A DNA stretch of 64,000 nt from an uncultured Methanobrevibacter sp. GTDB taxonomy: Archaea > Methanobacteriota > Methanobacteria > Methanobacteriales > Methanobacteriaceae. Both the position numbers and the translations under genes were made by a program. The stretch spans positions 1-64,000 of the forward strand of contig NZ_CACZTX010000006.1 of assembly GCF_902784195.1 (NCBI RefSeq), in the 5' to 3' direction. Position 1 is the first letter of the stretch. Each line of letters opens with the position of its first letter. Shown piece after piece: positions 43,507 through 55,776 of the stretch. Below the pieces are notes generated by a model, which made no database searches, was not told the origin of the DNA, and saw nothing but the letters and a program-made list of their open reading frames with translations.

Positions 43507-45165
43507 ATGTCAGAATCCGAACATAGAATGATAGAAATTCTAAGAATCCTTAATGTGCAGGAAAAACCAATTGGTTCAAAGGTAATAGCTGACGAGCTTA
43601 AAAACAAAGGGTATAACCTTGGTGAAAGAGCAGTGCGTTATCATATGCAAATTCTTGATGAAAAGGGATACACAGAAAGGAAAGGATATTCTGGCAGAGT
43701 CATCACCGAACTTGGAAGAGGGAAACTTGAAAAAGGATTGATTTACGACCAAGTGGACTTCACATTTTCAAAATTTGAAGAGAGAATATACTTAACTGAT
43801 TTTGATTACAATAAAAAATGTGGAAATGTAATCGTAAATACATCAAATATCCTAGACAACAAGGCATTTGACATCATTAAGAAAGTCTTTGCAGCAGGAG
43901 TTTGCGTAAGTCCATTGATCAATGCTAAAAAAACTGAAATCAATGGCAAAAAGGGATATGTGATGAAAACCATCTGTGGTACAACAATTGATGGAGTGTT
44001 CTTAAAAAATGGAATTCCTTCTATCCCTCAATATGGAGGGCTCGTTGAAATCGAAGATTACTATCCTACCAAGTTCTCAGAACTGATTTCCTACAAGAAA
44101 ACTTCAATAACTCCATTAGATGCATTTATAGCAAAAGACATGACTTCAGTATTGGATGTTGCAGAACATGGAACAGGTACAATTCCAGCAAACTTTAGGA
44201 TAATTCCTGAAACCGGGTTAAAGAAGGCAAAGGAAATTATACAAAAACTTGAAAAAGTGGGAATTGGAGGAGTTTTGGAAATTGGAGAGACAAGTGAAAA
44301 CGTTTTAGGAATTCCAGTCCCTGAAGGAATGGTTGGAATATCAATCATTGGAGGAATCACACCATTCTGTGCAGCTCAGGAAATGGATTATAAAGTTGAT
44401 ATCAAGACTGGAGAATCCTCTAAGCACAAAATCAAGAAAGCAAAGAAAGTGGAGTATAAGAAAACACCGTTTATACTTACAAAATCATTGAATAGGATGA
44501 ATCAGGTGGATTATGATATTGAAACAAATGAAGGAAACATAGTTGCAAACATATCCTATTTAGATAGACTGGATCTTGATGATGCTTTGACCATCATGAA
44601 AAGAACATATAAGAATCTTCCAAAATACATGAATCCTTTATTTAATATTGTAGATCATCCAAGTGATGAAAGCAAAGTTGGAATAGCTACCGTTTGCAGC
44701 TTGTCAATTGATGGAATCCTAATCAACAATGGTATCATGAGCACACCAAGATATGGTGGATTATTGGAACTTGGAAAGCCACCATTGTTTGTAGAAATGA
44801 TTTCATATGACGGTTCTTCAATAGACCCTCATAAAATATTTATCTTTAAAAATTTAACCCAAATAAGCAAAAGGAAAAACCCTAAGAAGATACTCGCTTC
44901 AATTAAAGAAGTTCCATACATAGCAAGACCTGAATGTGAAGCTATTTTGGATAAAATTAATGAAAATGGATTCCCTATATTTAAAGTAGGTAAGCCAAGG
45001 GAATTGGTGTACAATGCAAAAGTGGACAACTACAACTTCGGAATTGTTACAGGAAGCGGATTGAATTCAATAGCTGCAATTAAGGAAAAGGGAATAGCAA
45101 TTGAAGCAAAAGCAGTTGAAACCATTTTGCCAATAGAGGATATGAGTTTAATCTATGAACAATGA
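43507..45165 (+). CDS. nrpR: Nitrogen repressor NrpR
   Basis: A 552-residue protein: N-terminal winged helix (about residues 5-70: MIEILRILNVQEKPIGSKVIADELKNKGYNLGERAVRYHMQILDEKGYTERK) then two tandem NrpR (DUF128) domains (about 85-315 and 325-552), each with a TICGTTIDGVFLKNGIPSIPQYGGLVEI / TVCSLSIDGILINNGIMSTPRYGGLLEL block. NrpR binds GGAA-N6-TTCC and releases it with 2-oxoglutarate, so it represses nitrogen genes when ammonia is plentiful. The two-domain fused form is as in Methanothermobacter-type and Methanococcus NrpR. GTAGGAG precedes the ATG. Confidence 0.95.
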   Translation: MSESEHRMIEILRILNVQEKPIGSKVIADELKNKGYNLGERAVRYHMQILDEKGYTERKGYSGRVITELGRGKLEKGLIYDQVDFTFSKFEERIYLTDFDYNKKCGNVIVNTSNILDNKAFDIIKKVFAAGVCVSPLINAKKTEINGKKGYVMKTICGTTIDGVFLKNGIPSIPQYGGLVEIEDYYPTKFSELISYKKTSITPLDAFIAKDMTSVLDVAEHGTGTIPANFRIIPETGLKKAKEIIQKLEKVGIGGVLEIGETSENVLGIPVPEGMVGISIIGGITPFCAAQEMDYKVDIKTGESSKHKIKKAKKVEYKKTPFILTKSLNRMNQVDYDIETNEGNIVANISYLDRLDLDDALTIMKRTYKNLPKYMNPLFNIVDHPSDESKVGIATVCSLSIDGILINNGIMSTPRYGGLLELGKPPLFVEMISYDGSSIDPHKIFIFKNLTQISKRKNPKKILASIKEVPYIARPECEAILDKINENGFPIFKVGKPRELVYNAKVDNYNFGIVTGSGLNSIAAIKEKGIAIEAKAVETILPIEDMSLIYEQ

Positions 45166-45243: not shown

Positions 45244-45546
45244 TTAGATTACTTCAATATAAACAGACTCTTTAGTTTCGTCTTTAGGATAGTGATGTAA
45301 TTCTATAATATCTTCCTTATATTCTTCAAAGTCAACTTCAATAGTATCAGAAATAATTTCACCATCTAAAGCAATCATCACTCTACAACTTGGTTTTCCT
45401 CTAAAGTCAGAAAGATCTACACCTAAGACATCTCCTTTAGCAGAAACACGGTTGTATGCAATATCAACTTTATCGAATTCTTTAAAATTATTCTTAATGT
45501 AATCGAGAACTTCATCAGAAGTCATTGTTAATTCCTTATCTACCAT
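45244..45546 (-). CDS. Small archaeal protein, paralogue A
   Basis: A 100-residue acidic protein. Its core EVLDYIKNNFKEFDKVDIAYNRVSAKGDVLGVDLSDFRGKPSCRVMIALDGEIISDTIEVDFEEYKEDIIELHHYP aligns with the neighbouring paralogue B in the same order (IxYNRVxxxGxVLGL, LxGExxxxxxxxDxxxxxxxIIExxHxP). It probably belongs to a methanobacterial family (perhaps DUF2097). No motif suggests an enzyme. AAGGAGGT precedes the ATG. A four-unit 13-bp repeat lies in its upstream region. It is the third minus-strand gene after the fwd operon. Confidence 0.7.
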   Translation of the reverse strand: MVDKELTMTSDEVLDYIKNNFKEFDKVDIAYNRVSAKGDVLGVDLSDFRGKPSCRVMIALDGEIISDTIEVDFEEYKEDIIELHHYPKDETKESVYIEVI

Positions 45547-45780: not shown

Positions 45781-46083
45781 CTATAAACTAGCTTCAACAA
45801 TGATAAGCTTATCTTCATCTCCACCAGGCATATGACGGAATTCGATGATCTCATCCTTTACCTTATGCAAATCAATATCTACAGCCTGATTTAACAATTC
45901 ACCATTGAGCTGAAGGGAAAGTATTAATCCTTCACCGGTTTCCTCATCTTCTGGAGTAAGTCCAAGTACAGTACCTGGAGCAAATACTCTGTTATATGAT
46001 AATTCGAAAATATCATCAACTTTTACATTATTTCTTACATATTCTATAATATCGTCTGGGTCCATCTGTATCTCTTTGACCAT
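45781..46083 (-). CDS. Small archaeal protein, paralogue B
   Basis: A 100-residue acidic protein, the same length as paralogue A and clearly related to it (DDIIEYVRNNVKVDDIFELSYNRVFAPGTVLGLTPED, LSLQLNGELLNQAVDIDLHKVKDEIIEFRHMPGGDEDKLIIVEASL). No cysteine motif, signal peptide or membrane segment. The start at 46083 is preferred because AAAGGTG lies just upstream; the longer in-frame ATG would extend over it. It lies 3' of the fwd operon but after a strong terminator, so it is probably separately transcribed. Function unknown; perhaps DUF2097. Confidence 0.7.
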   Translation of the reverse strand: MVKEIQMDPDDIIEYVRNNVKVDDIFELSYNRVFAPGTVLGLTPEDEETGEGLILSLQLNGELLNQAVDIDLHKVKDEIIEFRHMPGGDEDKLIIVEASL

Positions 46084-46261
46084 ATTAACACCTTTTGTAC
46101 ATAGCATTATTTAAATTAAAATTATGATTAATAATCTTATACTTAATATCAATAAATGATAATTTAATTAATTAAAAAATTAATCTAATTGATTATAAAA
46201 TGAAATCATTATTTAAAAATTAATTAAATCATAATTTATCAATGTAATTTCTAAAAAAATA

Positions 46262-46317
46262 AAAAAATAAAAAAAGAAGAAAAATATAAGAAAAAGAGAA
46301 AGAGCTTATTGAGCTCT
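46262..46317 (-). terminator. Terminator of the fwd operon
   Basis: In the minus sense AGAGCT-CAATA-AGCTCT (46301-46317) forms a 6-bp stem overlapping the fwdC stop codon and is followed by TTTCTCTTTTTCTT and further T-rich sequence (complement of 46262-46300). Confidence 0.6.
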
Positions 46318-47172
46318 GTATTCTCTAATTGCGTTATATTCGTCGTCTTCTTCAATCCAAGTAGATAATCTGTCTCTGTTTTTCTCAGCATCAATAATTA
46401 AGGTACCTTTACCGTTTAAAGCAATGTCCCCTTTGTATTCGATGTATCTACCAGGATAAACAATACCATCTAATTCAGGATCGGTTACAATTCCTTGTTC
46501 TACGAAACCTTCGAGTAATCTTCCAACTTTTCCGTGAATTACGATGTTACCGTTTTTCATTTGTCCACCAGGCCAACGGTTTACGTTACCATCAATTTCA
46601 ATGGTACCTTTGGTCATGTGGATACCTGCGAGAATATCACAGTCACCTAAAACGTGGATTTTACCACCGACTAAACATTCACCACATTGTTTACCAGCAT
46701 TTCCGTGGATAATGATTTCTCCACCGGACATACCTCTCCATTCACCAATGTAGGATGCACCACAGAATTCTTTGGTATTACCCATAATTTCGAGTTTACC
46801 ACCTTTCATTTCACGACCAGCGTGAGCTGCTACGTTACCGAATACAGTAACTACTCCACCAGACATTTCTGCACCAACGTGAAGGTCTGCATCACCGTTA
46901 ACAACTACTTCACCAGCACTCATTTTACAACCGATGTATTTTACTCTGTTACAATCTCCGTTTAAAATCATTTTGACTTCAGCTGGAGATTCTGCTTCTC
47001 CTTCAACAGTGATGTCAAAGTAATCAGTGATTGGGAATCTGGAGTTTCCTACAGGTACTTTGTACTCTGCAAAGTCTTCTTCAGTCCAAGAGTAAATGTT
47101 ATCAGTGATTAACTCATCAAATTCTAAAGCAATTGAAGAAGTTTTCTTTTGATCAAAAGTTATAGTTTTCAT
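46306..47172 (-). CDS. fwdC: Formylmethanofuran dehydrogenase subunit C
   Basis: A 288-residue right-handed beta-helix protein with repeated Gly-rich units ([52 protein letters not shown] and so on), the GltB-C/FwdC fold. In the complex it joins FwdA and FwdB. It is the last gene of the operon, 15 nt after fwdA. AAGGAG precedes the ATG. Confidence 0.95.
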
Positions 47173-47187
47173 TAATAAACACTCTCC

Positions 47188-48906
47188 TTATTTAGCTTCT
47201 ACGTCCACTCTAGTTGGGTTTGGTACATAGTGGTCGTGTACTTGATAGTTTTCCCATTTGACAGAATAGTATTGGGTAAAGAATGGCATTATACTGTCGA
47301 TAATTTGTTTTTCTTCTTCTTCGTATCCTATGACGTTAGTCCAAATGGTGTGGCTTTGTTTAGTGGAAACAATGTCACCATCTTTAACAACGATTTGACC
47401 ATCTTTGATAGTGTAGTAAGCGTTACTGAATGCTTTTTCAACACCTTCAGGATCTTTGGATGGGTCAAAGTCATTAGGGTTAATGTCATATACAGCAATA
47501 TCCGCGTTGTAACCAGGGGTAAGTGCACCTCTGTCTTGGAATCCGTGGATTCTTGCAGGAGCTGCTCTGGAAATAGTAGCTATTTCGTAGAAATCGTATT
47601 CTCTTTCGAGACCAGCTAAGCCAGTTCTTTTGGAAGCCCATTTGTGTACTTCACCATTGTCAATCATAGACATCCTTTTCTCAGCACTCATTAACCAGGA
47701 GATGATCTTTGGATATCTGATGAAAGGACCTGCGTTAGGGTGGTCAGTGGTTAAACATACTTGCCATGGGTTCTTAATGTGCAAGAACAATTCAAGACCA
47801 ATAGCCCATTGTAAGGTACTTACTGGAGTTTTTGGAGAGTAAATACATGGAATGATACCAGCTGCGGTTTCACATTCAATGTCTTTGTTAGCCCATTTTA
47901 ATCCAGAAATTTTGAACAAGTCGTATTCCATAGGAGCGTCTGCAGTCATGGTTGTGGTTTCGTCGAAAGTTACTTGACCTACGTCACAAGTTACGTATGG
48001 GTTTTTGTTAATGAAGTCAGCAACTTCTTCTGCACCGGATGCTGCATCTTTCCAACTGTTACCAGTGTAAGAGTGGAATTGTGCGTGGGTACAGTGGATA
48101 GTTTGATCCCTTACGCCAGCAGATGCTTTAGTGGATTTTGCAATGTCTTTGATAGAGTCTAAAGTTGCAATAGTAGTTGGTACGTTTCCTGGGTGACCTA
48201 AATCATTAGGGTGGATGTGTATAGAGTGAGGAAGACCTAATTGTTCGTTAGCTTTTGCTAAAGCTCTTACAACTTCTCTGGAGGTTACGTCAAAGTAAGG
48301 TGCTTTGTCATCGTATCCGTGTACGTTCATACCCCAACCCCATGCTTCTGAACCACATGGGTTTACGATTTTTACACCGTATCCTTTAGATACTCTTAAC
48401 ATTGCTGCAATAAATGCTGCTAAGTCGTCAATTCTGTTTTCTCTTGCATATTCCATTACGAACCAGTTGTTACCGAATAATGGTAATGGGTTGATATCGA
48501 TGTTTGGAATAGTGTTAATTTCTTCGTGTGTGTGTTTTGCTTCTAAAGGAGGCATAGCTGCTTCACAAACAGTACCGTATCCCATTCTGGAGTATCTGTA
48601 TCCAGTGGTAGGACAACTTGGGATAGAGAAACCAGCTTCAGCTCTGGTTACTTTAGTTTTTTGAGCTACTCCTCTTCTTTCGTCTTCTGGTCTGTATAAT
48701 CTACCTACAACCAATTTTGGTCCTGCAACGTGAGCGTGAGGGTCTACACCAGCAGGCATTACAATTTTATCAGTGACGTCTAATACTTCAGCGTCAGCGG
48801 ATACATCTTCAACGATTTTACCATCTTTGAAGCAGATATCCATTTTTTCTCCGTTTACTTCATTAGCAGGGTCGTAAACAATACCATTTTTAAGTATATA
48901 TTCCAT
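47188..48906 (-). CDS. fwdA: Formylmethanofuran dehydrogenase subunit A
   Basis: A 572-residue metallo-amidohydrolase: [17 protein letters not shown] with metal ligands H57 and H59, [69 protein letters not shown]. It contains the dinuclear zinc site that condenses formate (from the FwdB side through the internal tunnel) with methanofuran. The ATG at 48906 is preferred because AAGGTGAT lies just upstream; the GTG at 48915 is part of it. It starts 10 nt after fwdB. Confidence 0.96.
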
Positions 48907-48916
48907 TAAAATCACC

Positions 48917-50314
48917 TTACTTATCTAAGAGACATGCGAGACCTTCATTAGGAACGTATTCATCTGCTACGTTAGGTTCTTCTCTGAGTTTCATTACTCT
49001 TTCTTTCAATTCACGTACAATCCATTCGTCATCACGACAGGTTTCAGGTTTGTCGATAGCTTTTTTCATCCAGATAGGAACACCATCCATACGGTAACTG
49101 GTACCTCCACATTCTACAGAAATGAAGGATCCAGGAAGTACTACGTCAGCGAGTTCGGTAGATGGTCCCCAGTGAATATCGATTTGGATAACTGGAATGT
49201 TTGCTAAGTGTTGGTTTGCTCCGTTAGGGAAGTGAGCACCAGGGTCAGCTGCAATTACCATGAAACAGTCAGGTTCTTTTCTTACGAGTAAGTCAATAGT
49301 GTTGGTTTCACCCATCATATATCTTCCGTATCCTCTACAGAAGTCTACACCGAATGCCCAACCGGTTTCGTAAGCCATGAAAATGTTGAAACCGTTTACG
49401 TTAAAGTGACCTCTCATTGGAGTAAGTCCCCATTTACTGTTGGTGTTTAAGTCTTGTACTAATTTAATTGCGATGTCAATGTTTCTTTGTTTACCTAAGG
49501 TGTGGGTTAAACCTAAACCGAAGAAGAGAACACCGAATTCTGCAGCTTCCATTTCAGCAGCTAATTCATAAATGTCTTCAGCTGGAATACCGGAAACAGA
49601 TTCAGATTGTAATTTTTTACCTTTTAATACAGCTCTTAAAGCGTTGTAGAAACCGTAGTCTCCGTTTTGTTCAAATCCAATCCATTTGTCAGACATTTTA
49701 GCAGTGTCTGAGAATTTTGGATCCATAGTGATAACGGTTCTGTCGAATCTACCTCTTTGTCTGAAGTATCCTCTAGGGAATGCTGCATATCTTGCTAAGT
49801 GTCTTGGGTGAGAGTTCATAGCGTTACTACCAGAGTATGCAATAACGTCAGCTCTGTTTTTTACTTCCCCTAAGGTTTGGATAGGGTAACCTGCGTTTTG
49901 CATAGCTTGTAAACTTGGACCGTGACAGATAGTTGCTTGGTTATCTAAAACAGCACCAATATATTCACCTAATTCTACACCTTCTTTCATACATTCAGTA
50001 GAAGTTTCAGACCAACCGTAGAATACTGGTCTAATAGAGTTTGCAATATATTCAGCTGCAGTGTCTAAAGCAGTATCCCAGTCCACTTCTTCAAGAACTC
50101 CTTCTTCGTTTCTTACCATTGGTACAAGTAATCTTTGGTCCATATCTTCCATAACTTTACTTGCACCTAATCTGCATGCGTGTCTTACAGCAACTACGTG
50201 ACCGTCTTTTACTAAGAAGTCTAAGTCGTCACAGTTACATCCACAAAATGCACAAGTACAATTTTCTACAATGTGATCGTAATCAGTTACAGGTGGTTCA
50301 TATGTCATGATCAA
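48917..50314 (-). CDS. fwdB: Formylmethanofuran dehydrogenase subunit B (W/Mo)
   Basis: A 465-residue molybdopterin/tungstopterin catalytic subunit: [20 protein letters not shown] for one [4Fe-4S] cluster, and QATICHGPS, where the Cys (about residue 130) replaces the selenocysteine seen in some fwdB genes. Further blocks [67 protein letters not shown] and [19 protein letters not shown] bind the pterin. It reduces CO2 to formate inside the complex. Its 5' end overlaps fwdD by 17 nt. TTG at 50314 has better spacing to GGAGG; ATG at 50308 is an alternative. Confidence 0.96.
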
Positions 50315-50870
50315 TCAACTCCTCCCATTTACGTCCGTTATAAACTGGTCTTTCACCTAATGATTCCATGTTTTCTACAACATCATCATCTTCTTCATCA
50401 ACATATTTTTTGTATACCCATCTCATTAAGTCTGCCATTAATAAAACTTTTCTGTCAGTTTTTTCAACGGTAGCGTGGATACCTTTGTAAGTAGGGTCTG
50501 AACAACAGTAGGTTTCGTGGCTTACAATAGTGTTAGCCCATGGACCTTTACATACAAAAATGGTACCTTCGTGAGGAGCATCTCTGGATTTTGCTGCGTT
50601 TAAAACAACTTCACCGTAGTCGGTTTTTACAAGTACAGTGTCCCAGTTTTTTACACCTAATTTTACCATGTCACGAGGATCCATGTAACAGGTACCTGAA
50701 GCGTTTTTATATTCTTCTTTTAAGGTAGAACCTCTTTTCTTACAAGCTCCTTGATATATGTCAGAACCAGTGTTTAACATACATTTGAGTACTTTAGTAG
50801 TACCTTCTTGAGCTACGTTTTCTAAATCTCCAACTACTGGTCTTTCTAAATAAGTATTTGCGTAATGCAT
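50298..50870 (-). CDS. fwdD: Formylmethanofuran dehydrogenase subunit D
   Basis: A 190-residue protein with the molybdopterin dinucleotide-binding fold: [90 protein letters not shown]. It completes the pterin-binding site formed by FwdB; subunits B and D correspond to the N- and C-terminal halves of formate dehydrogenase alpha. The C-terminal ~55 residues are longer than usual and acidic then basic. GGAG-type site before the ATG; the gene overlaps fwdB by 17 nt, implying coupled translation. Confidence 0.93.
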
Positions 50871-50880
50871 GTTATCACTC

Positions 50881-51111
50881 CTATTCTAACCATATAGCTT
50901 CAGTTGGACAGAACATTTGGCAAGTACCACATTTGTCACATTTGTCCACACTGAATAATTTAATAAATCCGTTTTCAACCATCATAATAGTTTCGGTTGT
51001 TTTGGAACCATGTCCACCAGCGTTTTCTGGGCTGATAGAAGCGTTTACTGGACATGCGATAACACATACTCCACAACCTAAACATTTATCTTGATCTACT
51101 TTAAGTTCCAT
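50881..51111 (-). CDS. fwdG: Ferredoxin subunit FwdG
   Basis: A 76-residue protein with two [4Fe-4S] motifs, [12 protein letters not shown] (residues ~10-21) and [12 protein letters not shown] near the C-terminus. It passes electrons between FwdF and FwdB. GGTGAT precedes the ATG; it starts 10 nt before fwdD and 18 nt after fwdF. Confidence 0.93.
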
Positions 51112-51129
51112 AAATAATCACCAATCAAA

Positions 51130-52230
51130 TTAATTTTTTAAAGCTTCGAATGCTGCAATCCAAGATTTAGAACTAGTTGGGGTGTAATCGATGTCAGTTC
51201 TAGTTACGGTTAATGCTCCGTTAGGACATGCTTTAGCACATGCACCACAGTGGATACAGTAATCTTCTTCTTTAACTAAGTGAGTTCCTCTGTCTCCAGG
51301 ACCAGATGATTTAGGGAAGGATAAAACATTACATGGACATACATCAATACATGCACCACAGGTACCACATTTTTCTTCATCGATTTCGAGAGTACCTTTA
51401 AATGCTTGTTTTACAGTAGCTGCGTCTGCAGGACAGACTCCTTCACACCATCCACATTTAATACAGGTTTCTTTATCAATAATTGCATTACCGGTAATAG
51501 CTGCTTTAGCAGGGTCGAGGTCATATTCACCGTAGGAACAGGATCTACATACTGCTTTAATAGCGTTAACAGGACATGCTTTTTTACATACGAGACAGTA
51601 TACACATTTTTCTTTGTCAATAACAATGCTTTCTTCACCGGTGGTTTTGTCTACTACAATAGCTTCTGCAGGACATAATTCAGCACAAGCGCCACAGTAA
51701 ATACAGTCGTCTTCACATACTTCGATTTCACCAGTTACTAAGTCAGCTCTGTTAGGTAAAGTTCTGTCAATAGTGATGGAAGCTCTAGGACAAGCTGCTT
51801 CACATTTTTTACAGAATAAACATTTGTCTTCATCGATTTCAGCTGAAGCGATGAGAGTTGGATAAGCTTCATTTTCTTTAATAGAGACGCCACCAATAGT
51901 AAGGTCTAATGCGCCTGCTGGACATACTCCACTACACATACCACAGAGAACACATTTGTTTTCATCAATGCATAATTTTGCTTTGACTTCATTGTCGTTT
52001 TTGAAAAGAGCATAATTTTGAGCAATCTTTTCATGACCACTGAAATAGGTTTCTGTGTATTTACGTTCAATAGGAGCTACTTCATCAAGAGCAATAGCTT
52101 CTACAGGACAAGTTGCTTCACAAAGGCCGCAACCAATACAAACGTGATCTTTAAAGGACAAAATTCTGTCTTCTTCTGCTGATCTTTTTATATTGAAGTT
52201 TTTGCCTTCAATTTCTTTAACGTTAACCAT
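51130..52230 (-). CDS. fwdF: Polyferredoxin FwdF
   Basis: A 366-residue polyferredoxin with eight CxxCxxCxxxC motifs in order: CIGCGLCEATCP, CVLCGMCSGVCP, CLFCKKCEAACP, CIYCGACAELCP, CVYCLVCKKACP, CIKCGWCEGVCP, CGTCGACIDVCP and CIHCGACAKACP, giving eight predicted [4Fe-4S] clusters that form an electron wire within the Fwd complex. GGAGGT precedes the ATG. The start overlaps the upstream HTH-ferredoxin gene by 8 nt. Confidence 0.95.
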   Translation of the reverse strand: MVNVKEIEGKNFNIKRSAEEDRILSFKDHVCIGCGLCEATCPVEAIALDEVAPIERKYTETYFSGHEKIAQNYALFKNDNEVKAKLCIDENKCVLCGMCSGVCPAGALDLTIGGVSIKENEAYPTLIASAEIDEDKCLFCKKCEAACPRASITIDRTLPNRADLVTGEIEVCEDDCIYCGACAELCPAEAIVVDKTTGEESIVIDKEKCVYCLVCKKACPVNAIKAVCRSCSYGEYDLDPAKAAITGNAIIDKETCIKCGWCEGVCPADAATVKQAFKGTLEIDEEKCGTCGACIDVCPCNVLSFPKSSGPGDRGTHLVKEEDYCIHCGACAKACPNGALTVTRTDIDYTPTSSKSWIAAFEALKN

Positions 52231-52681
52231 TTTTTACCTCCAAAATTTCAATTGATTTTGTTGGGCAATTCTCAACACACATAAGACAGCCACAACAATA
52301 ACGGGGGTTTATCTTTGCTTTCAATGAATCTAAGTTAATAGCCTTCATCTCACACAAATCTACACACAATCCACAACCAATACATCCATCGTTAATCTGT
52401 GGGTCATAATGATTCATATTAAAAATAGTCACGATTTGACGAATTTCTTTATAATCTCCAAATAAAACTTTTGTTATTAATATAAAATCCTTAGGACTTA
52501 ACTCTAAAATAGTTTTAGCAAGTTCGATAGAATCCATGGATATGTTTCTACCATTCAAGTAGTGAGAAATAGTTGATCTGTCTACACCGATTTGAGATGA
52601 AATCTCCTTTTGGGACAAGCCTCTTTTTCTCAACTCAACACTTTCTAAATATTTTAGTCCAGATACTATATGTTTTGGCAT
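52223..52681 (-). CDS. fwdH: HTH-ferredoxin protein, first gene of the fwd operon
   Basis: A 152-residue fusion. Residues ~14-48 form a helix-turn-helix of the XRE/Cro type (LRKRGLSQKEISSQIGVDRSTISHYLNGRNIS); residues ~50-95 are a linker; residues 100-139 hold two [4Fe-4S] motifs CIGCGLCVDLCE (C100, C103, C106, C110) and CCGCLMCVENCP (C129, C132, C135, C139). The position matches fwdH of Methanothermobacter, first in fwdHFGDACB. The DNA-binding domain suggests an iron-sulfur-sensing transcription regulator rather than only an electron carrier, though it could be both. It overlaps fwdF by 8 nt. GGTGAATTT precedes the ATG. Confidence 0.85.
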   Translation of the reverse strand: MPKHIVSGLKYLESVELRKRGLSQKEISSQIGVDRSTISHYLNGRNISMDSIELAKTILELSPKDFILITKVLFGDYKEIRQIVTIFNMNHYDPQINDGCIGCGLCVDLCEMKAINLDSLKAKINPRYCCGCLMCVENCPTKSIEILEVKNG

Positions 52682-52756
52682 AAATTCACCATGTGTACAT
52701 TATAATATATATTATATATACTTATAAAAGGCACATACTTAGACTCAAGTATAAAG

Positions 52757-52768
52757 ATTTATATATGA
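52757..52768 (-). promoter_or_regulatory. TATA box for the fwd operon
   Basis: CATATATAAATC in the minus sense, about 80 nt upstream of the start at 52681; predicted transcription start about 52735. A second TATA-like run (TTTATAAGTATATATA, 52711-52726) lies closer to the gene. Confidence 0.4.
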
Positions 52769-52769
52769 C

Positions 52770-52786
52770 TGTGTATTATTTACACA
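52770..52786. promoter_or_regulatory. Operator-like palindrome 1 (TGTGTA-N5-TACACA)
   Basis: TGTGTA-TTATT-TACACA, a perfect 6-bp inverted repeat with a 5-nt centre. It abuts the predicted TATA box of the fwd operon on its upstream (BRE) side. Confidence 0.6.
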
Positions 52787-53050
52787 TTTGTAAAAATATT
52801 AATTTTTAATTATATTAATTATTTTCAAAAAATAAGAATAAATAATAAATTAATATAAAATATTTAACTAAATAATTATTTACTCATTAAATAAATTATT
52901 TTTTAACCTAATTATAAAAATTAAACTGATTTTATTAAAATAAAAATAGTTAAAATCTAATCAAAAATAGCTAAATTATATCTCCAATATGTAAACAAAT
53001 TTACATCGAATTTATGAAAATTTTTTAAATTTTTAGGCCAAACAAAAAAA

Positions 53051-53067
53051 TGTGTACTAAATACACA
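53051..53067. promoter_or_regulatory. Operator-like palindrome 2 (TGTGTA-N5-TACACA)
   Basis: TGTGTA-CTAAA-TACACA with one more complementary base on each side (A53050, T53068), so 7-bp arms. Confidence 0.6.
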
Positions 53068-53074
53068 TGATGCA

Positions 53075-53091
53075 GGTGTAGTAAGTACACA
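53075..53091. promoter_or_regulatory. Operator-like palindrome 3 (GGTGTA-N5-TACACA)
   Basis: GGTGTA-GTAAG-TACACA, five of six arm bases complementary. Its centre is 24 bp from palindrome 2, so the two sites are on nearly the same DNA face (about 2.3 turns). Confidence 0.55.
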
Positions 53092-53145
53092 TAGGGATTT
53101 TTGAAGAAAAAAACAATGAAAAAATGGAAAAATTCACTAAAAAAA

Positions 53146-53199
53146 AATATATAAAAACTATATGAAAAATATATAAAAACTATATGAAAAATATATAAA
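53146..53199. repeat. 22-bp tandem repeat
   Basis: AAATATATAAAAACTATATG-AA occurs twice in tandem (53146 and 53168) with a third partial unit from 53190. AT-rich and possibly just replication slippage. Confidence 0.7.
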
Positions 53200-53308
53200 A
53201 AAATAATGAAAATTAAGATAAAAATTGATGAGGAATTTATTAAAAAAATATAAAAAATTTATAAAAAATATTAAAAAGATTATTAAAATAATCTATAAAA
53301 AAATAATA

Positions 53309-53359
53309 AAAAATAGAAAATAATGAAAAATAGAGAATAATGAAAAATAGAAAATAATG
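53309..53359. repeat. 17-bp tandem repeat, three units
   Basis: AAAAATAGAAAATAATG at 53309, 53326 (one substitution, A to G) and 53343, ending 13 bp before the moaA stop codon. In the minus sense it gives T-rich sequence that could help terminate moaA. Confidence 0.85.
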
Positions 53360-53372
53360 AAAAATTTATTAT

Positions 53373-54305
53373 CTATTCTTCCTTATAGAAAGGTTCCCTA
53401 TTATGGATTCCCTTAAGGAAAATGTCTACAAGTTCCTCATCAGAGACTCCTTCTCTAATGAACTCCACCAAGTCAACAAGATTATCGTTTCTAAGAAGAC
53501 AAGGTTTGATCTTTCCTTCAGGAGTGATTCTAAGTCTAGTGCAATTCTTGCAGAAATTGGTATTGTCTACAGGATGGACAACTTCAATCTCACCGCCTTC
53601 AATGAAATATTTCTTACGATCCTGCATAAATTCCCTTACCTTGATTTCATCTGCAATTTCAGCAAGGTATTTTTCAAATTCTGCAAGTGGGTAATGGTAC
53701 TTGGAGTTGAAGTCATTATCATCACAGCTTTGAGATTCTATAATCTCAATAAGTTGAAGTATGACACCATTCTCTTTAGTGAATTCGAACATGTCCATGA
53801 TCTCATCATTGTTGATATTATTCATAACTACCATATTTATCTTAACTGGATACATACCAACTTCACAAGATTTAACAATTCCATCCTTTACTCTTTGTAA
53901 AACGTTTTTCCCTACAATCATTTGATAGGTTTCTTCATCAAGTGTGTCTAAACTGACATTAACTCTGTCTAATCCTGCATCGACTAAATCTTGTGCAAAT
54001 TTCTCCAAAAATATACCATTGGTTGTGATTGAAATATCCTTGAAATCAAGTGAATTAATTTTTTCAACAATTTCAACTATGTCTGGCCTGACTAAAGGTT
54101 CGCCACCAGACAAACGTATTTTCTCAACACCTAATTTCTTTGCAATTCTACAGATTTCATAAATTTCATCAGGAGTCATTTCAGAAGATGAATCCAACAT
54201 ACCATCATGGTGGCAATATATGCAGTTTACATTGCAACGATTGGTAATGGAAATCCTAAGTGAAATAATTGGCCTTTCATAATCGTCTCTTACTTTATCC
54301 TTCAT
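53373..54305 (-). CDS. moaA: GTP 3',8-cyclase MoaA
   Basis: A 310-residue radical SAM enzyme: [18 protein letters not shown] (CxxxCxxC for the SAM cluster), [28 protein letters not shown], and a second [4Fe-4S] site near the C-terminus in [22 protein letters not shown]. It starts molybdopterin synthesis, feeding the W/Mo cofactor needed by Fwd and Fdh around it. Length fits archaeal MoaA. GGGG lies before the ATG. It is the last minus-strand gene before the fwd regulatory region. Confidence 0.95.
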
Positions 54306-54666: not shown

Positions 54667-55374
54667 TTATTCTTTTTTATTTTTAATTGTTATGTCAATA
54701 TCATCAAAGTTCTCTACACCATATTCCTTAATCTTAAGTGGAGTCAAAACTCCCAATATGGTTTGCTTGAGGTAATCGCTAACAAATCTGTTCAATCCAA
54801 TATTCACCCCATCAATAGCTAAATTGACTTCCGCTTGAGTTTCCGGATTGTAATCCAATTTTCCTTGTGCGAAAGCTTGACCTATGAGACTTGCATCATT
54901 ATATCCGCATTCATTAACAAATAATGTCTCCAAAATATCGTAAGATCTTTCTTCCACAAGGTCAACCAATTCCAATAGCTCTTCATCTGTGATTTCAAAA
55001 GAGTTCACAACTTTGATTGTATATTCATCCTTGACCTCTTCACAGGTAGCTATTTTAGCATAAGGATAAGCTTTAAATCCTTCTATAACCACAAAATCAG
55101 GATTTTCCATAAGTTTTATTAAGAATAAAATACGTTCTAAATCAAGTCTTTCATTAATATTGAAATAGGTTCTTCCACCGATTCCTACAACAAAATCAGA
55201 ACCGGCTTCCATTTGCTTATAGGTGTCGGTTCCCTCATGATCCATTTCCATTTGGTGATGAGAATGCTTAATGCTTGCTACCTTAAAGTCCCTATTGCCT
55301 AATTCCGTGATAATCTTGCTTGTAAGGGATGTCTTGCCAGTATTCTTTAAACCTACAATTGAAATAATTCTCAT
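54667..55374 (-). CDS. mobB: Molybdopterin-guanine dinucleotide biosynthesis protein MobB with extra C-terminal domain
   Basis: A 235-residue protein: P-loop GLKNTGKTSLTSKI, IKHSHHQMEMDHEGTDTYKQMEAGSDFVVGIGGR, LIKLMENPDFVVIEGFKAYPYAKIATCEEVKD, typical of MobB GTPases. Residues ~180-235 form an extra C-terminal domain not found in bacterial MobB, homologous to the separate 61-residue protein next door. MobB helps attach GMP to molybdopterin. GGTG precedes the ATG. Confidence 0.92.
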   Translation of the reverse strand: MRIISIVGLKNTGKTSLTSKIITELGNRDFKVASIKHSHHQMEMDHEGTDTYKQMEAGSDFVVGIGGRTYFNINERLDLERILFLIKLMENPDFVVIEGFKAYPYAKIATCEEVKDEYTIKVVNSFEITDEELLELVDLVEERSYDILETLFVNECGYNDASLIGQAFAQGKLDYNPETQAEVNLAIDGVNIGLNRFVSDYLKQTILGVLTPLKIKEYGVENFDDIDITIKNKKE

Positions 55375-55776
55375 TTTTACACCAAATTATAAAAAATTTT
55401 TAAAAAACTTTGATTGATTAAATAAAATTTATAACCTATTGTTAAATTTAATTTATCTAAATAAACTTTTGTCCCCAATCATAGATTAGATTATCTATTA
55501 ATCAAAACTCATCAGAAAAAATAGACAGTAAAATTTCACTAAATAAATTAAATTTAAAAATAAATCAATAGCTATTTTTAAAAAAATAATTTAAAAAATA
55601 GTTTTTCATGGAAATGAGTGAATAAGAGGTGACTATTTTAAAAATTATTTAATTAAAAAGGAGAATAAAAATAGAAAATTGTAAAACGAATATAATAAGC
55701 AAAACGCTCATTACAAAGTTTTACAACAACTAATTTATTCTATCGTGTTTCACCATTTTGATTTAAATCTTCAATC
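55375..55776. other. 402-bp region between fdhB and mobB
   Basis: No gene. It contains an inverted repeat (TTGTAAAAC 55679-55687 and GTTTTACAA 55718-55726, loop 30 nt) followed in the minus sense by TTTTCTATTTTTATTCTCC, a possible terminator for the fdh operon. The rest is AT-rich and presumably carries the mobB promoter. Confidence 0.5.
55660..55726 (-). terminator. Possible terminator of fdhAB
   Basis: 9-bp stem TTGTAAAAC/GTTTTACAA with a long 30-nt loop, then T-rich sequence in the minus direction, about 50 nt past the fdhB stop. The long loop makes it less certain. Confidence 0.4.

Follow-up and report, generated by a model that had tools for sequence, protein, structure and literature searches.

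The operon for the tungsten formylmethanofuran dehydrogenase begins with a gene named fwdH, and the question raised by this locus is whether its product is a subunit of the enzyme or a regulator of the operon. In methanogens of the rumen and gut, hydrogen-driven methanogenesis starts with the reduction of CO2 to formylmethanofuran. The window, i.e. the whole stretch of 64,000 nucleotides that was analyzed, comes from a Methanobrevibacter genome of 2.05 Mb whose nearest named species is M. olleyae. The operon lies on the minus strand in the order fwdH-F-G-D-B-A-C. Its first enzyme gene, fwdF (51130..52230), encodes a polyferredoxin that matched the NCBIfam model FMH_DH_FwdF with 455.6 bits (cut-off 375). 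The genes fwdG, fwdD, fwdB, fwdA and fwdC together span 46306..51111. NCBIfam matches were obtained for fwdB (48917-50314, above cut-off) and for fwdD (50298-50870, a clear match, yet below cut-off), while fwdG (50881-51111), fwdA (47188-48915) and fwdC (46306-47172) were assigned by gene order, family knowledge and tblastn counterparts in Methanosphaera. Two small proteins of 100 and 108 amino acids are encoded after fwdC on the same strand (45244-45546 and 45781-46107). In Methanosphaera both match the same positions downstream of fwdC and are therefore probably related to each other; the 108-residue protein gave no NCBIfam match. The protein encoded at 43507-45165 on the plus strand resembles the nitrogen regulator NrpR.

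We analyzed the domains of the fwdH product (52223..52681, minus strand, 152 amino acids), which is assigned by its open reading frame, Pfam matches and orthology. The reading frame begins with ATG and its 3' end overlaps the start of fwdF by 8 bases. An earlier note had claimed that this protein carries an XRE-type helix-turn-helix (HTH) followed by two complete CxxCxxCxxxC motifs, and had proposed a profile search of the N-terminus and a structure prediction. Both were run, and both claims held. Residues 17-54 (52520..52633, minus strand) matched HTH_3 (PF01381) with an E-value of 4.9e-9 and 36.5 bits, above the cut-off of 23. The AlphaFold2 model, built with 14 orthologues, placed helices at residues 3-19, 24-31, 35-42 and 49-59, with block-mean pLDDT values of 82-95 over residues 1-60, so that the N-terminal half is predicted to be a canonical HTH. 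Searches of the PDB with this fold gave no strong match; the neighbours were HTH proteins with weak scores, and a fold missing from the lists is not excluded. The C-terminal half (residues 97-148, 52238..52393, minus strand) matched Pfam Fer4, Fer4_7, Fer4_9 and Fer4_10, all above cut-off. This half was unresolved in the model (pLDDT below 40), and we take it as a 2[4Fe-4S] domain whose bound clusters are inferred from the two cysteine motifs.

Conservation was examined in 97 distinct orthologues. The eight motif cysteines (C100, C103, C106 and C110; C129, C132, C135 and C139) did not vary, and an additional cysteine beside the second cluster motif, C130, was present in 96 of them. The recognition helix and following turn, RSTISHYLNGRN (residues 35-46, 52544..52579, minus strand), were marked out by the same invariance: R35, S36, T37, S39, H40, Y41, G44 and N46 were identical in all 97 sequences. 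Mean identity in the linker (residues 63-94) was 58%. A vestigial HTH would be unlikely to retain precisely its DNA-facing residues, although this remains an inference from sequence alone.

When 151 genomes of the phylum were searched with a profile, FwdH was matched in 111, nearly always in single copy and distributed over four families. The orthologues were full length, and fwdF was found directly downstream on the same strand in all of the 41 loci checked. The HTH is thus not a chance domain match, as the complete architecture is conserved over its full length in the four families. One of these includes genomes whose FwdF is near-identical to Methanothermobacter FwdF (PDB 9sw6/5t5i), and it is from this near-identity that we inferred their assignment to the genus. 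By tblastn, the four Methanosphaera genomes (L095, L096, L180 and L181) possess fwdGDBAC without fwdH and also without fwdF. Genomes of the genus g5 that lack FwdH also gave no FwdB match, making their absence uninformative. No orthologue outside the class was detected in two other groups (23 and 115 genomes), in searches made without a positive control.

Inspection of the DNA upstream of fwdH revealed a feature of which the earlier note made no mention: a palindrome, GTGTA-N5-TACAC, with the fuller 15-bp form tGTGTA-N5-TACACa, which recurs before the gene. The exact palindrome occurs only three times in the 2.05-Mb genome, each time upstream of fwdH; shuffles of the window gave none. Putative operator site A (52771..52785), reading GTGTAAATAATACAC on the minus strand, is located at -104 to -90 from the fwdH start and was identified by its conservation. 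It is followed after 5 bp by a TATA-like box, TATATAAA (52758..52765, minus strand), proposed as part of the fwdH promoter without a mapped transcription start. The two other exact copies are putative distal operators at -385 (53052..53066, GTGTATTTAGTACAC on the minus strand) and -409 (53076..53090, GTGTACTTACTACAC on the minus strand). Closer to the gene, TGTACAC (52693..52699, minus strand) appears to be the remnant of a putative site B; most other genera carry this site as a complete palindrome at -26 to -29. In the genus of the window only a half-site is left of site B, its left arm being lost, and the two distal sites, 24 bp apart, are conserved as a pair. A scan for bacterial-type promoters and terminators, not meant for archaea, gave no more matches than in shuffled sequences.

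These sites were then followed in 101 upstream regions from the four families, accepting two mismatches or fewer and using shuffled sequences as control. Site A (about -104) was present in 94 regions (shuffled mean 1.35); for site B (about -27) the count was 72 (shuffled 0.45), and a perfect distal site was found in 57 (shuffled 0). Many of these regions come from close relatives and thus represent fewer independent cases; all four families nevertheless contain the sites. Sites A and B were 77-78 bp apart in 63 of 68 regions, the TATA-like box lay 5 bp downstream of site A in 62 of 94, and the core of site A, GTGT...CAC, was essentially invariant. In the Methanothermobacter-like genomes site B is GTGTGATTAACACAC, i.e. 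GTGTG-N5-CACAC. This A-to-G change at operator position 5 of site B is accompanied by the D34N substitution in FwdH, GTGTG replacing GTGTA in 12 of the 14 N34 sequences. The covariation is weak, because the N34 sequences come mostly from two families and from few clades. Methanosphaera has no conserved sites; a lone site with one mismatch was found about 140 bp before fwdG in one of its four genomes (L180).

Other conserved elements were observed in the same region. One lies between the TATA box and site B (52737-52756, minus strand) and reads ACTTGAGTCTAAGT in the window, TTTTCTATTTGTTTTTTGTAGAAA in the Methanothermobacter-like genomes and TCTATTTNATTCTAGTAGG in g5; it may be the site of another regulator or the start region. 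Two further elements adjoin the distal operators (53031-53043 and 52974-52992 in the window, minus strand): a TTTAGGNNNNCCTAAA-like box, present in many genomes, and a stretch of ACATATTGGAGATATAATT that is conserved within the genus of the window. The former resembles the iron sites of the DtxR family. A second promoter is one possible reading of these neighbours of the distal operators.

We also searched for targets beyond the fwd operon. The distal site of genus g5, in most cases GTGTAGTTACTACAC, faces the divergent gene mobB, whose product acts in molybdopterin guanine dinucleotide synthesis. In two genomes (L164 and L165) one operator copy is found at mobB and one at fwdH, with a polyferredoxin gene between the two genes. 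This additional gene (2018-3031 in L164, 1876-2889 in L165) resembles fwdF and has operator copies on both flanks. The mobB gene of the window (54667..55374, minus strand, Pfam MobB) does not face the distal operator, and no operator was found before it (55375-55776), even with three mismatches allowed. Apart from the mobB copies, the remaining exact matches examined in other genomes were mostly located within genes, so that the target set appears to be fwd plus, in some genera, mobB, and a wider regulon was rejected. A palindrome of the GTGTAATTATTACAC type was seen beside the gene of a small MRSRRRRR-protein in two related genomes (L167, position 1132; L174, position 1064) and is likely unrelated.

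The two domains, the orthology, the palindromic sites and their specific location at fwdH are shown by computation. That FwdH is the protein bound to these sites is inferred from their location, from the invariant helix and from the joint absence of both in Methanosphaera. This absence supports the link, with the caution that it represents a single evolutionary loss and that L180 keeps its lone site. The genome contains no second close copy of the FwdH HTH, the next match having an E-value of 0.15. The earlier note had suggested that the protein controls its own operon, and had named two refuting cases, an N-terminus that aligns to no HTH family and a stable Fwd subunit without DNA binding. 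Neither was observed: the N-terminus gave the significant HTH_3 match, and FwdH matched no chain of the solved Fwd complexes, those of Methanothermobacter included, while FwdF of the same operon did. Absence from the solved structures is no proof of absence from the complex in cells. The claim of autoregulation is supported by new evidence, the conserved palindromes flanking the promoter and the invariant recognition helix, without binding data. In the literature searched we found no binding, expression or structure data on FwdH, no mention of it as a DNA-binding protein (an earlier mention in the fwd operon papers of the 1990s is not excluded) and no regulator of the tungsten fwd operon. Taken together, these results make it likely that FwdH is a DNA-binding autoregulator, in whichever direction the control is exerted.

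Three other binders of the palindromes were considered and rejected. Tfx, a DNA-binding regulator encoded before fmdECB and known to regulate fmd (PMC3087415), was absent from all Methanobacteriaceae genomes searched, and its domain TFX_C (PF14601) had no match anywhere in the genome of the window, FwdH included. MsvR, whose redox-controlled binding to an inverted repeat in its own promoter is modulated by cysteine residues, recognizes a different motif, TTCGN7-9CGAA (PMC3729527). The known operator of NrpR is GGAA-N6-TTCC, which also differs from the palindromes. Tfx was the sole candidate tested by name, and other unlinked regulators were not excluded one by one.

The model that we favour, with moderate confidence, is that FwdH is a dedicated Fe-S autoregulator exerting negative control on the tungsten formylmethanofuran dehydrogenase operon; binding is inferred here, and the signal and the repression are only proposed. 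A dimer of FwdH would use its HTH on tGTGTA-N5-TACACa, whose half-sites are one helical turn apart and thus fit an HTH dimer, as judged from repressors of the 434 and lambda type. Site A, abutting the BRE/TATA end of the promoter, would hold one dimer; a second would occupy site B, which would fall between the start of transcription and the start codon. DNA occupied on both sides of the start would probably block the loading or escape of TFB and RNA polymerase. The 2[4Fe-4S] half would be the sensor, its redox state or cluster assembly altering the affinity for DNA, and C130 may take part. Such sensing would couple the synthesis of an Fe-S-rich, ferredoxin-driven enzyme, with the mobB step in some genera, to the supply of electrons or Fe-S. 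The idea of a sensor of redox state, Fe-S supply or oxygen, put forward in the earlier note, stays a proposal, the signal read by the clusters not being established. Some observations count against the model. The tungsten enzyme has been described as formed constitutively in Methanothermobacter (PMC3087415), which makes molybdate or tungstate sensing by FwdH less likely; regulation may span only a narrow range, or something other than the metal may be the signal. The half-lost site B in the genus of the window also counts against the model.

The main rival to repression is that FwdH binds DNA as an activator, recruiting TBP/TFB from site A, with site B and the distal copies only tuning the response. 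Site A closely precedes the TATA box, a position used by archaeal activators, and it is retained in the genus of the window while site B is degenerate. However, most genera have site B on the downstream side of the TATA box, at a constant spacing from A, which is a place typical of a repressor; activation nevertheless remains possible. A more distant alternative, which we consider unlikely, is that FwdH belongs to the Fwd enzyme, as a subunit that carries electrons or as a loading factor, its HTH serving as a protein-protein module while an unlinked regulator binds the palindromes. The literature counts FwdH in a FwdA-DFGH complex (PMC3087415), its ferredoxin half is conserved, and fwdF follows fwdH in every locus checked (41/41). 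Against this stand the lack of a match among the chains of solved complexes, the invariance of the DNA-facing helix positions, the palindromes that accompany fwdH and, for the unlinked regulator, the absence of Tfx, the one candidate tested by name, from the Methanobacteriaceae genomes searched. Translation control, in which site B would act in the mRNA as a hairpin adjoining the ribosome-binding site, is still less credible. GTGTAATCATTACAC could indeed make a short stem 5' of GGTG, but the same sequence recurs upstream of the TATA box, as site A, and distally before mobB, outside the expected fwd mRNA, and no Rfam match for a structured RNA was obtained in 52200-53450.

A bolder reading, which we regard as possible, gives FwdH two jobs: electron exchange with either the Fwd complex or the ferredoxin pool, and DNA binding that depends on its redox state or engagement. 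If true, the operon encoding the first methanogenic step would directly sense electron pressure in its own pathway, by means of a repressor with a ferredoxin joined to it. Under the autoregulator model, a protein labelled as an enzyme subunit would appear to be the regulator of the tungsten operon, with a defined 15-bp candidate target, across the class. How the formylmethanofuran step is matched to electron or Fe-S supply could then be tested directly, using a single small protein and a short piece of DNA.

The closest known relative is FwdH of the Methanothermobacter fwdHFGDACB operon, an orthologue with 53-55% identity over the full length, the same cysteines and the same recognition helix, encoded directly before fwdF. 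It has been described only as part of FwdA-DFGH (PMC3087415), and no DNA-binding role was found in the literature searched. By sequence and by Foldseek, the natural proteins nearest to the HTH are C.Esp1396I and C.AhdI, XRE-type controller proteins of restriction-modification systems that share the DR[TS] opening of the recognition helix. These are small autoregulators binding palindromes at their own promoter. The matches are weak, however (sequence E-values of 0.011 and above, Foldseek E-value 0.13), and these proteins are bacterial and have no Fe-S domain. Tfx is alike in being encoded beside a formylmethanofuran dehydrogenase operon (PMC3087415), but carries TFX_C instead of a ferredoxin and is missing from the Methanobacteriaceae genomes searched. 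MsvR resembles the proposed FwdH as a redox-sensing methanogen regulator at its own promoter and differs in its motif. FwdH is best described as a candidate Fe-S transcription factor, its DNA binding being inferred, in which an XRE HTH joined to a two-cluster ferredoxin is hidden under the name of an enzyme subunit. IscR, FNR and SoxR are likewise HTH proteins with a cluster as the would-be signal, but have other folds and cluster arrangements than an XRE HTH joined to two ferredoxin-type 4Fe motifs.
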